Shown here one piece after another: positions 5,571 to 14,447 of a DNA stretch of 14,779 bases (position 1 is the stretch's first letter; the number at the start of each line of letters is the position of its first letter). This stretch comes from an uncultured Pelagibacteraceae bacterium (lineage in GTDB: Bacteria > Pseudomonadota > Alphaproteobacteria > Pelagibacterales > Pelagibacteraceae). The notes under the pieces were generated by a model. That model had not been told where the DNA came from. It was given only the letters and a program-made list of their open reading frames with translations, and made no database searches. Made by a program: the position numbers and the translations under genes. The stretch lies in contig CABYKW010000014.1 in NCBI GenBank assembly GCA_902519635.1, forward strand, positions 1-14,779. The letters are read 5' to 3'.

Positions 5571-5647
5571 CGGGGCGTAGCGCAGCCTGGTAGCGCATCT
5601 GGTTTGGGACCAGAGGGTCGCAGGTTCAAATCCTGCCGCCCCGACCA
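5571..5647 (+). tRNA. tRNA-Pro (anticodon TGG)
   Basis: The cloverleaf is complete. The acceptor stem CGGGGCG (5571-5577) pairs with CGCCCCG (5637-5643). The D-arm stem GCGC (5580-5583) pairs with GCGC (5593-5596). The anticodon stem TCTGG/CCAGA encloses the loop TTTGGGA, with anticodon TGG at 5605-5607. The variable loop is GGGTC. The T-arm GCAGG/CCTGC encloses TTCAAAT (5625-5631). The discriminator is A5644 and the 3' CCA is encoded at 5645-5647. This is the UGG-reading proline tRNA, able to read CCN codons by wobble when modified. Its GC richness stands out in this AT-rich DNA. The next coding start is only 6 bases away. Confidence 0.97.
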
Positions 5648-5653
5648 TTCATT

Positions 5654-7876
5654 ATGAATATTAACAAAGTAGTTGTTATAGGTTCTGGAACAATGGGTAG
5701 TGGAATTGCTGCTCATTTATGTAATGCTGATATACCAGTAGTATTATTAGATTTAAAAACTGAAATTGCAGAAAAAGCAAAAGAAAGAATTTTAAAATCT
5801 AGACCACCCTTATTATTTGAAAAAGACAAAATTAAAAGTTTGAAGGTTGGCAATATTACTGAAGATTTTGGTAATGTTTCCGATGCAGATTGGATAATAG
5901 AAGCAGTTGTAGAACGAATTGAAATTAAACATGATATTTATAAAAAGATTTTTGATATAAGAAAAAAAAATTCAATAGTTTCATCCAATACGTCTACAAT
6001 TCCTTTAAAAGTTCTATCAGAGAAATCTAATTTGGAAGACAAAAAAGATTTTTGTATAACACATTTTTTTAATCCAGTAAGATATATGGGGTTGCTTGAA
6101 ATAGTTAGAGATAATTCAAATGATTCTAATAAAATTAATTCCTTAAAAAATTTTTGTGAAAAAAAATTAGGTAAAGGTGTAATAGTTTGTGGTGACACAC
6201 CTGGTTTTTTAGGAAACAGAATTGGAGTTTTTGCTATGCAGGTAGCAATGACTGAAGCTGTGAATATGGATCTATCTGTAGAGGAAGCTGATGCTGTATT
6301 TGGAAGACCTATGGGTATACCTAAGACTGGTGTTTTTGCATTATATGATTTAATTGGCATTGATCTAATGTCAGATGTTCTTAAAAGCTTTAAAAAGGAA
6401 CTATCATTAGAAGATGATTTTCAAAAAGTTGTTTCTGGTTTACCTGTTATAAAAACGTTAATTGAAACAGGATATACCGGAAGAAAAGGTAAGGGCGGTT
6501 TCTATAGAATCAACAAATCAGAAAATAAAAAAACTCTAGAAGCTCTCGACTTAAAAAAAAATGAATATTTTCCTGTAAAGAAGATAGATTTAAAAATTGA
6601 TAAAATAAATCTTTTAGAATTAATTAATAGAAATGATAAGTATGGTAAATATGCATGGTCGGTAATATCTAAGATTATCTTGTACTCATCTTCTTTAGTT
6701 CCAGCAATAACTGATGAATACAATGACATAGATGAGGCATTAAGACTTGGATTTAATTGGTCTATGGGTCCATTTGAAATGCTCGAGTCTATAGGATTAA
6801 AAAATTTCTTTTCAAAACTTGAAAATATTAATAACAACGAATTTTTAAAGAATCTTAAAGAAAAAAAAGTAGAAAATTTTTATGACGAAAGACAAAAATA
6901 TACAGATTTACAGACTCTTGGTAAGATTAAAAAAGCAGCTATTAAATTAGACAAGAATGATTCTGCAGAAATATTTAGATTTCAAGACTTTAACATTGTT
7001 GAATTTAATACAAAAGCCAACGCCTTGGATAATAATTCCATGGATGCTTTAAAAAGAGCCACAGATAAACCTCTAATTATTATAAATGAAAGTATGCAAT
7101 TTTCTGCAGGGGTTAACCTCAATTATGTAATGGAATTTATTAAGAATAATGATTTGAAGTCTGTAGAAAAATTCATTAAATATTTTCAAGAAACTTGTAA
7201 GCATCTTAAATATTGTAAACACCCAGTCATATCCGCTCCATCAGGTCTCGCTTTGGGAGGAGGGGAAGAAGTTGTATTACAAAGTAATTTTGTAGTCACA
7301 CATACTAATATTGTAATGGGTTTGGTTGAAACTATTGTTGGTCTAGTTCCTGCTGGTGGAGGTTGTAAAGAATTGCTTTGGAGATGGTCTCAAACAAATG
7401 AATCTAAAACAGATCCAGATTATGCTTCATTAAAAGTTTTCGATATAATTGGTTATGCTAAAACTGCCTCTTCACCACAAGAAGCAAAACCTTTGTTATT
7501 TTTAGACAAAAATCATAACGTTATAATTAATAGAAACGAGTTATTGCCTGCAGCAAGACAATTACTCAATAAAGACCTAGAAATGTCTCCTACTAAAGAA
7601 TGTAAATTTAAACTATCAGGTAAAAATGCCAGAGAAAAAATGCACAAAATACTTGAAGCATTATATAATGATAAAAAGATTCTAGATCACGGTATGGAAG
7701 TTGGTAAAGAATTAGCATATGTTTTAAGTGGTGGAGATACAGATTTAAGCAAAGAGGTTACAGAAGATCAAATGTATAAATTAGAATTGAATAGTTTTAT
7801 GAAATTAATCGAAAATAAAAAAACTCAAGACAGAATTGCACACACATTAAAAACAGGAAAACCATTAGTTAATTAA
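5654..7876 (+). CDS. Bifunctional 3-hydroxyacyl-CoA dehydrogenase/enoyl-CoA hydratase (FadN-like domain order)
   Basis: This 740-residue fusion has the dehydrogenase first and the crotonase last, as in Bacillus FadN and the reverse of E. coli FadB. The N-terminal Rossmann domain has GSGTMGSG (residues 10-17). The dehydrogenase active site shows SSNTS (110-114), His137 in HFFNP and Asn188 in GDTPGFLGN. Two helical HCDH segments follow (about 190-290 and 330-400). The crotonase domain (about 445-600) keeps both catalytic glutamates: Glu539 in ALGGGEE and Glu559 in GLVET, 20 residues apart as in classic hydratases, plus an FSAG oxyanion segment. It should hydrate 2-enoyl-CoA and interconvert the 3-hydroxy and 3-oxo forms. 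No thiolase is present. It starts 6 bases after tRNA-Pro, and its TAA directly abuts the ATG of the dmdC-like gene. Generic beta-oxidation is the alternative to a DMSP role. Confidence 0.92.
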
Positions 7877-12561: not shown

Positions 12562-12567
12562 CTTAAA

Positions 12568-13344
12568 TTGAATCTTTTAATTGATAATAATGAAGTTTTT
12601 TTAATGGACACCGGAACAACTTTTGATTCTAATAAACACTCAGTATTATTATTACATGGTAGCGGCCAATCTCATGTGGTTTGGTCTTTAACGACTCAGT
12701 ATTTGTCAGATCAAAATTTCAATGTTTTCGCATTGGATTTTCCAGGACATGGTAATTCAGAGGGTCAAAGTTTAAAATCAATAGAAGAAATGGCTGTGTG
12801 GTTGGAAAAAGTAGTAAATAAAATAGGAGTGAAAAATCTTTCATTAGTAGGACATTCTCAGGGATGCTTAGTGGCTTTAGAATATACGAACAGATACCCT
12901 GAAAAAGTAAATAATATTATTTTTGTTGCAGGTTCTTATGAAATTCCGGTGAACAAAAGTCTTATTGATTTAGCTTACTCAGGTGATATGGAGTCCCTAA
13001 ATCTAATGATGAAATGGGGTTATGGAAAATCTAAACAATTTATTGGAGGAAATCCTTTACAAAAGATCTTAAACTCATCTAGAGAAGTAAGAGAGGTTTT
13101 AGCAGTAGATTTAATTGCATGTAACAATTATAAAAATGGAGTAAATGCTGTAAAAAAAATAAATTGCTCTACTTTTTTTATTTTCGGAGAATTAGATAAA
13201 ATGATTAAAATCGAAAAAGGAAAAGAATTTGCAGGATTAATTCCTGATTCAAAAATACATATAATCAAAAATTGTGGTCATATGATAATTTTAGAAAATG
13301 CATTTGAAATGAGAGAAAAAATTTCAGAATTTTTAAAAAAATGA
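12568..13344 (+). CDS. Alpha/beta hydrolase of unknown substrate
   Basis: This is a soluble alpha/beta hydrolase-fold enzyme of 258 residues with an intact catalytic triad: Ser97 in GHSQG, Asp210 in GELDK and His238 in CGHMI. An oxyanion loop HGSGQSH lies at residues 30-36 and the DFPGHGNS element follows. There is no signal peptide, so it is probably cytoplasmic. It resembles 3-oxoadipate enol-lactonase and esterase-like members, but nothing shows the substrate. A TTG start at 12568 is supported by AGGA at 12558-12561. Its TGA overlaps the dmdA ATG (ATGA at 13341-13344), so the two are likely translationally coupled. That coupling suggests work on a DMSP-related ester or thioester, such as editing of a dead-end acyl-CoA; this is inference. 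It is not one of the known DMSP lyase families (Ddd or Alma). Confidence 0.88.
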
Positions 13345-14447
13345 AAACTTTTATAACGAGATCTAGGAGATTGAGAGGAACACCTTTTACTTCAAGGCTA
13401 GAAAAGCAAGGAGTAAAAAGTTTTACTGTTTATAATCATATGCTATTACCAACTACATTTTCATCACCTGAAGAAGAATACAATCATTTAAAGGAACATG
13501 TTCAAATCTGGGATGTTTCAGTACAAAGAGAAATTGAAATTTCAGGAAAAGATTCTTCAGAATTAATTCAATTGATGACTTGTAGAAACCTGTCCAGTTC
13601 AAAAATTGGTAGTTGTTACTATGCACCTCTAGTAGATTCTGATGGTGGAATTATAAATGATCCTTTAGTTTATAAATTAGAAGAAAATAAATGGAGAGTT
13701 TGTATAGCAGACTCGGATGTGCTTTTATTTGCTAAAGGAATAGCTTCTGTAAAAAAATTTGAAGTAAATATTTTTGAAGCAAAAGTAGATACACTAGCTA
13801 TTCAAGGACCAAAGTCTGTAAAAATAATGGAAAAAGTTTTTGGAAAAGATATTATGAATTTAAAATTCTTTAAATTTGATTATTTTACATTTAATAAAAG
13901 GAAATACTTAATTTCTAAATCAGGATTTTCTAAACAAGGTGGTTTCGAGATTCATACTGACAATATAGATGGTGCCTTGGAATTATATGATTATTTTTTT
14001 AAAATCGGTAAAGAATTTAATTTAAAACCTGGGACACCTAATCATCCAGAAAGAATAGAAGGGGGATTATTATCATATGGAAGTGATATGGACATTTTTA
14101 ATAATCCTTTTGAATGTGGTTTTGACAAGTATGTAGATTTAAATTCAGATATATTTTTTTTAGGAAAAGAAAATTTAAAAAAGATAAAGGAGAAAGGAAT
14201 TAAAAATAAAATCATGGGAGTAAAAATTGACTCAAAATTTATTGATGTGTCACAAGGCATTCCAATACTGAATTTAAAAAATGATGTAATAGGTCAACTA
14301 AGATCAGCTGCTTACTCACCAAAATTTAAAAAAATAGTTGGAATTGCTATGATTAAAAAAGATTTTTGTAATATTTCTGAGAAATTTCAATTAAAAATAA
14401 ATAATAAACTAATATCAGGTGAAATTTGTAATTTACCTATTATATAA
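13341..14447 (+). CDS. dmdA: DmdA-like dimethylsulfoniopropionate demethylase
   Basis: DmdA transfers a methyl group from DMSP to tetrahydrofolate, giving methylmercaptopropionate and 5-methyl-THF in the cytoplasm. The protein has the GcvT fold and 368 residues, close to the roughly 369 of Pelagibacter DmdA. DmdA-type rather than GcvT-type features are TVYNHMLLP near residue 30, HVQIWDVS near 53, the NDPLV segment, [10 protein letters not shown] at 195-203 (GcvT has a TGE motif there), and [11 protein letters not shown] with [13 protein letters not shown]. Absence of a glycine-cleavage gcvH or gcvP neighbour and presence of dmdB- and dmdC-like genes support the call. From memory, known DmdA proteins often carry Trp in the SGxSKQGG element and Tyr just after it; here these are Phe196 and His205, so substrate use should be checked. 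A DmdA-like methyltransferase of other specificity is the main alternative. Its start overlaps the hydrolase stop by 4 bases. Confidence 0.8.

Follow-up and report, generated by a model that had tools for sequence, protein, structure and literature searches.

A probable SAR11 DMSP demethylation cassette with its own candidate methylthioacryloyl-CoA hydratase behind a proline tRNA gene

Dimethylsulfoniopropionate (DMSP) is an algal sulfur compound, and SAR11 bacteria live on reduced sulfur such as DMSP. The nearest described system is the demethylation (dmd) locus of SAR11 itself, a group that PMC3160333 ranks as the most abundant heterotrophs in the sea; a figure legend of that paper gives the HTCC1062 locus as mmgC, fadD, mhpC and dmdA, and DmdC, DmdB, an optional alpha/beta hydrolase and DmdA, in this order, are the ordinary, already published SAR11 set. 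P. ubique has no DmdD orthologs according to PMC5069961, where other enzymes are hypothesised for the step that frees methanethiol; because of this absence, the methanethiol-freeing enzyme of SAR11 is without an assigned gene. A second point of comparison is provided by DmdD and AcuH of Ruegeria, and a third by the FadN/FadE/thiolase beta-oxidation clusters of alphaproteobacteria. Here we describe a stretch of 14,779 nucleotides from an uncultured Pelagibacteraceae bacterium (GenBank assembly GCA_902519635.1, contig CABYKW010000014.1; the whole stretch is called the window), in which the ordinary set is extended by three further genes and stands between a proline transfer RNA (tRNA) gene and an NDUFS4 gene. 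From sequence comparisons, we consider it moderately probable that these genes form a SAR11 DMSP demethylation cassette equipped with its own candidate hydratase for methylthioacryloyl-coenzyme A (MTA-CoA), which is probably transcribed together with the tRNA.

Seven co-directional open reading frames (ORFs) were confirmed on the forward strand at 5654-14447, directly behind tRNA-Pro. Their 5' to 3' order is a 3-hydroxyacyl-CoA dehydrogenase/enoyl-CoA hydratase (HAD/ECH) fusion, DmdC, DmdB, OsmC, an ECHDC3-like crotonase, an alpha/beta hydrolase and DmdA, and the domain assignments from family models agree with the gene names of a preliminary description made from the same DNA. The gaps are 0 bases between fusion and DmdC, 2 between DmdC and DmdB, 4 between DmdB and OsmC, 6 between OsmC and the ECHDC3-like gene, and 29 between the latter and the hydrolase, which overlaps DmdA by 4 bases. 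The compact run with gaps of at most 29 bases given in that description was therefore recovered, the limit of 29 presupposing the TTG start of the hydrolase used in the ORF list. Its extent needed amendment: base 5571, given there as the start, is the first base of tRNA-Pro and not of the first ORF, and the co-directional run goes on past DmdA into the NDUFS4 gene 2 bases downstream.

A comparison across 80 named SAR11 loci retrieved with DmdA, the named relatives being Pelagibacteraceae single cells, separated the ordinary part of this run from the new one. The HTCC1062-type locus of SAR11 subgroup Ia shares DmdC, DmdB, the alpha/beta hydrolase and DmdA with the window, whereas it is without the fusion, OsmC, ECHDC3 and NDUFS4. 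In the canonical loci displayed, leuC/leuD/leuB-like genes lie upstream in four of five and an aspartate-semialdehyde-dehydrogenase-like gene downstream in four, L042 ending at that point (both read from N-termini). DmdB and DmdC accompany DmdA in 77 of the 80 loci, and so the linkage is no chance arrangement; it is kept within the genus, and the lack of conservation named in the preliminary description as grounds for doubt was not encountered. The extension is missing from 68 loci, 66 of which hold DmdC, DmdB and DmdA (L034 has only hydrolase and DmdA, and L067 is cut). The hydrolase was detected in 24 of the 68 and belongs to the gene set published for HTCC1062, which makes it an established dmd neighbour. 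The extended arrangement occurs in 12 loci, with the fusion in 11 and OsmC and ECHDC3 together in 11: L031 begins inside DmdB at a contig end, so that a fusion is not visible, and L082 (G008 in the whole-genome set) is without OsmC and ECHDC3 while keeping the remaining order. Thus, the core of the operon is not unusual, and the new elements are the extension and its setting between tRNA-Pro and NDUFS4. No published account of the fusion or of the OsmC/ECHDC3 extension was found in the open-licence literature.

The fusion gene (5654-7876, forward strand) encodes a FadN-like protein identified by family models, PDB alignments and residues. Its N-terminal part matches PF02737 and PF00725 and has the NAD motif and the catalytic His/Glu/Asn (H137, E149 and N188) of a 3-hydroxyacyl-CoA dehydrogenase. 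The C-terminal domain possesses the two catalytic glutamates of an enoyl-CoA hydratase, E539 and E559, which align with glutamates of PDB 2wtb and 4b3h, and none of the five residues varies among the 10 fusions aligned (the window's and nine relatives). The predicted structure was poor (mean predicted local distance difference test score 49, predicted template modelling score 0.33, 11 close sequences). DmdD and AcuH resemble the fusion in their crotonase fold, two glutamates and proposed reaction, a likeness drawn from description and not from sequence alignment; in the fusion, however, the hydratase domain stands C-terminal to a dehydrogenase, and it is remote from stand-alone crotonases, whose best PDB match has an E value of 2.8e-07. 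AcuH, an enoyl-CoA hydratase, acts on MTA-CoA as stated in an excerpt of PMC5395565, and therefore a beta-oxidation hydratase can in principle hydrate this compound. The preliminary description had sought the hydration step among the partner genes; of these, the fusion stands as the best candidate for the MTA-CoA hydratase of SAR11. The ECHDC3-like protein was rejected as a hydratase because both catalytic glutamates are gone: its Q124 and G144 face the catalytic glutamates of the hydratases 5zai and 2pbp (2vx2 and 3myb were also aligned).

Fusion and DmdA are inherited together. A survey of the same 81 genomes of the genus for each protein gave 20 with the fusion and 22 with DmdA: the two occur jointly in 18, both are missing from 57, and six carry just one of them. 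The association gives a Fisher p of 2.7e-12, which is overstated, as relatedness and physical linkage are ignored. Contig ends were seen in three of the six discordant genomes (G001, G006 and G014); coordinates near a contig start suggest truncation in G044 and G081, and G088 has a fragment and is 7% contaminated. G001 is also the genome closest to the window, with a DmdA 99% identical. Outside the genus, fusions with at least 46% identity to the window's by BLAST (group A) were set apart from those with 38-44% (group B). Six group-A genomes from other genera than the window's were tested, and each has a DmdA above cutoff. The fusion adjoins DmdB in three alphaproteobacterial genomes outside that genus (G127, G356 and G434), and in G258 (L154) a run of fusion, DmdB, MetY and alpha/beta hydrolase joins genes for the CoA ester of methylmercaptopropionate (MMPA) to a methanethiol-assimilating enzyme. 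This MetY passes its curated model (645.8 against a cutoff of 636), and MetY builds methanethiol into methionine, as an excerpt of PMC5069961 has it. A second SAR11 genus, g172, has the fusion in 49 of 61 genomes and, at a completeness of at least 90%, in all 11; the corresponding figures for DmdA are 50 of 61 and 10 of 11, and the two g172 DmdAs included in the tree group with that of P. ubique. One g172 DmdA match (G525:C3:74435-75358) contains two internal stop codons, being a decayed copy or the product of assembly errors. SAR11 IIIa was rejected as the identity of G394 and G304, both of which have dmdA, while IIIa is without it according to an excerpt of PMC10030771.

Several observations weigh against assigning the fusion to DMSP. 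Its HAD domain is intact although demethylation requires no HAD step, and the fusion family is at heart one of beta-oxidation. Group B was found in 96 of 385 genomes; in the eight loci examined, a DmdC/FadE-like gene adjoins the fusion in 8/8, and a thiolase-like gene lies upstream in 4/4 displayed (L164 was confirmed by a family model, the others read from N-termini). In g172, the fusion stands outside the dmd operon, behind ATP-binding cassette transporter genes at five loci (L160, L161, L184, L188 and L189), and L184 has a thiolase about 12 kilobases (kb) from it. G503, 90% complete, has a fusion and no DmdA match. Of 14 genomes with DmdA above cutoff, only five have a fusion copy, close in G258 and G127 and distant in G206, G214 and G217; the fusion region of G001, also among the 14, is cut by a contig end. 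Since most of these 14 genomes showed no copy, other DmdA users must use another hydratase. The monophyly of group A including the family f32 genomes has a support of only 81 in a tree of 28 rows from a quick search, which warned of long branches meeting at L146. The in-cassette fusion of G077 clusters with the unlinked g172 copies (support 97), which indicates one orthologous fusion in two settings.

These observations invite the view that fusion, DmdC and DmdB make up a routine module for oxidising short- or medium-chain fatty acids, that its place in one operon with DmdA is accidental, and that a different crotonase hydrates MTA-CoA. Arguments for it are the thiolase/fusion/FadE clusters in which the more distant copies of the fusion lie, the unlinked g172 copies, and the breadth of DmdB and DmdC, which accept fatty acids too (PMC5395565). 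The window shares with such clusters the fusion architecture and the adjoining dehydrogenase; it differs from them in that no thiolase is encoded among the operon's proteins, whereas the clusters have a thiolase-like gene, no DmdA matched in the eight loci and a DmdB-like match of only 26-28%. With the co-occurrence of fusion and DmdA in the genus, and with fusions beside DmdB, and once also MetY, in other lineages, we judge such a module unlikely and retain the fusion as the candidate MTA-CoA hydratase.

DmdC and DmdB were assigned with graded confidence. The DmdC-like acyl-CoA dehydrogenase (7877-9637, forward strand, 586 residues, with a PF12806 C-terminal domain) aligns over residues 1-582 with PDB 6ijc, presumably a DmdC, at 507 bits. 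It scores slightly more against 8png (522 bits), a probable acyl-CoA dehydrogenase, so that its specificity for MMPA-CoA is putative. The DmdB-like acyl-CoA ligase (9640-11268, forward strand, 542 residues) passes the acyl-CoA synthetase model PRK08162 (858.6 bits against a cutoff of 677) and matches PDB 6ijb and 6ihk at 272-274 bits, but fails the NCBIfam equivalog PRK07008 for 3-(methylthio)propionyl-CoA ligase (350.3 bits against 822). For this reason the name is kept at DmdB-like, and it rests on conservation of the SAR11 locus: the protein is 76-90% identical to the genes at the DmdB position of canonical SAR11 dmdA loci. The alpha/beta hydrolase (12568-13344, forward strand, 258 residues) matches PF00561 and carries the motifs GHSQG, GELD and CGHM, and is a candidate thioesterase. 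A hydrolase and the distant fusion copy of G214 also lie about 0.9 kb from a DmdA on the opposite strand.

DmdA (13341-14447, forward strand, 368 residues) belongs, by sequence, within the DmdA family. It passes the curated NCBIfam model NF009133 (483.6 bits against a cutoff of 410) and aligns with the structurally solved P. ubique enzyme (PDB 3tfh) at 505 bits. In the tree, it lies in a clade of 20 rows (support 99) whose sister is the canonical SAR11 DmdA clade that includes 3tfh (13 rows, support 94), and both nest in a 36-row clade with a support of 100. This tree comprises 67 rows from a subset of the loci, was built by a quick search with Shimodaira-Hasegawa-like approximate likelihood ratio support only, and retains one very long row (L137_30). 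A placement outside the demonstrated demethylases, which the preliminary description regarded as fatal to its reading, was looked for, and the sister position to the 3tfh clade was found instead. DmdA homologues of 37-39% identity were also observed near other aminomethyltransferase-like genes, in the same order, in three loci of family f2 (L019, L021 and L023); family f2 is represented in the tree by four rows, none of them within the window's DmdA clade.

The same clade has residues of its own, which count against an unchanged substrate. F196 and H205 of the window's enzyme face W197 and Y206 of the P. ubique enzyme, and canonical SAR11 DmdAs have W197 and Y206 in 68/68 loci (counted over all 80 loci). 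Over the 67 tree rows, the clade has F or Y at position 197, Y206H in 19/20 rows, and W120R, S122C and E63Q each in 20/20; His at 206 is restricted to it, and positions 206, 120, 122 and 63 are conserved in the 22 other DmdAs compared (13 canonical and nine high-scoring). An excerpt of PMC7487153 describes a tryptophan as key for DMSP, with F there marking a non-DmdA clade of a different structural type; equating this tryptophan with W197 is our own residue matching, and on that basis the F or Y of the clade counts against the DmdA assignment. The loss of W197 was rejected as proof of lost DMSP activity, and alone it decides nothing, because the five top-scoring DmdAs outside SAR11 have Y there. 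Because of the derived residues, however, the substrate could differ: the clade's DmdA may have shifted to another sulfonium or ammonium compound degraded by the operon, and such a compound would call for the HAD domain if it carried a 3-hydroxy group, as gonyol does. The intact HAD residues fit such a shift, and so do second DmdA homologues, 45-48% identical to the window's, which four g172 genomes carry at a distance of about 11 kb from the fusion (L184-L187, from G499, G504, G494 and G508). Only that of L184 was looked at more closely: it exceeds the DMSP demethylase cutoff (531 against 410), and a thiolase follows it directly; this second homologue could serve a longer sulfonium compound. 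The shift is nevertheless quite improbable in view of the sister position to the P. ubique clade, the tyrosine of the non-SAR11 enzymes at position 197, L073, a member of the same clade that retains Y206, and the cassette's lack of a thiolase.

OsmC and the ECHDC3-like crotonase complete the extension. The OsmC-family protein (11273-11722, forward strand, 149 residues) matches PF02566 and PDB 2d7v (101 bits) and has both cysteines, C64 and C134; the ECHDC3-like crotonase (11729-12538, forward strand, 269 residues), devoid of the two hydratase glutamates, matches PRK08139 at 377.4 bits (cutoff 313). In the 190 genomes of the class that were searched, relatives of ECHDC3 are common, with 85 at an E value of 1e-45, and those of OsmC rare (14 at 1e-20). 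Close OsmC relatives (at least 52% identity) occur in four non-SAR11 genomes; a DmdA homologue lies directly upstream in three (G251, G258 and G214), above the DmdA cutoff in G258 and below it in G251 and G214, and ECHDC3 adjoins in three (G251, G258 and G127), followed by DmdB in G251 and G127. By the coordinates listed, none of the nine weaker OsmC matches is beside an ECHDC3 match. The two proteins could be passengers with no role in DMSP use, given that the G008 cassette (L016/L082) does without both while otherwise keeping the order, and that ECHDC3 has neither glutamate. We hold this to be somewhat doubtful, since the pair recurs beside DmdA homologues in other lineages, which argues for a joint role of an unspecified kind. 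The preliminary description treated all four partners as functional parts of the pathway. They likely belong to it, with roles that are our proposals: fusion and hydrolase adjoin DMSP demethylation genes elsewhere, whereas for OsmC and the ECHDC3-like protein a putative role is suggested only by their linkage.

The seven genes form a discrete cassette between tRNA-Pro and NDUFS4. Empty sites were fetched for six of the 10 dmdA-negative genomes with an NhaA match (13 searched), and in 6/6 of these congeners the seven genes are exactly what is absent, with NhaA, tRNA-Pro, NDUFS4, an SbmA-like transporter and an AEC transporter standing in the order seen around the cassette. The left border, tRNA-Pro(TGG) (5571-5647, forward strand), occupies the same site in four other cassette-bearing and six empty congeners. 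The right border is an NDUFS4-like subunit gene (14450-14734, forward strand, PF04800), a resident of the site directly behind tRNA-Pro in 6/6 empty congeners; it was rejected as an operon member since it stands at the empty site too. An att-type repeat at the right border was likewise rejected, the DmdA-NDUFS4 spacing being only 2 bases, with no dedicated repeat search run. A 17-row NhaA tree requires the cassette state to have changed at least twice and does not separate gain from loss.

The fusion ATG follows the end of the tRNA by 6 bases in the window, L012, L014 and L016 and by 4 in L176, and NDUFS4 begins 5 to 9 bases after the tRNA at empty sites. Because there is no space for a promoter between tRNA and first ATG, the cassette is probably transcribed together with tRNA-Pro. 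Reading by eye found a promoter-like TTGCCA (5532-5537), a 17-base spacer and TATAAA (5555-5560) ahead of the tRNA (5532-5560, forward strand), an arrangement present in 10 of 11 sites compared by eye and not in L016. A consensus promoter scan did not list this pair and returned two sites against a chance mean of 1.7.

Two further features of the site were noted. A recombinase-like ORF, named by our own reading, lies behind the AEC transporter (L012:14691-15650) and at the same place in L011, L014, L016, L176 and L179-L183; the position is common to cassette-bearing and empty congeners (5/6 empty sites, L178 ending before it), and no NCBIfam match was obtained at an E value of 1e-30. On the other side of the cassette, at 3378-5496 of the window, GPx, a 135-residue protein and NhaA are divergent from it and conserved in empty congeners too.

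Sequence, linkage and the literature on relatives suggest the following reactions, in this order. DmdA would transfer a methyl group of DMSP to tetrahydrofolate, yielding MMPA; DmdB would convert MMPA to MMPA-CoA, and DmdC would oxidise the latter to MTA-CoA. The hydratase half of the fusion would then add water to MTA-CoA, the step of DmdD or AcuH in Ruegeria, and the hydrated product would collapse and release methanethiol. The alpha/beta hydrolase might cleave the remaining CoA thioester, OsmC might defend against peroxides or reactive sulfur from the pathway, and the ECHDC3-like protein might be a non-hydrating accessory. A highly speculative extension would put both fusion domains to work on the sulfur intermediate: MTA-CoA would be hydrated, the hemithioacetal oxidised to the S-methyl thioester of malonyl-CoA, and methanethiol freed by the alpha/beta hydrolase; in a variant, the HAD step would let SAR11 degrade gonyol to MMPA-CoA through a DmdA homologue and a thiolase. 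If both domains were so used, SAR11 would gain NADH and malonyl-CoA (or malonate), not acetaldehyde and CO2.

With the fusion as its best candidate, the gap in the SAR11 demethylation pathway becomes a matter for a one-protein assay, as this protein travels with dmdA in the genus, is found in every near-complete g172 genome examined and stands beside DmdB and MetY elsewhere. OsmC and the ECHDC3-like protein are given a testable metabolic setting by the cassette. The cassette also shows that the genomes of one SAR11 genus either have or lack DMSP use as a whole, and dmdA must accordingly be scored genome by genome.

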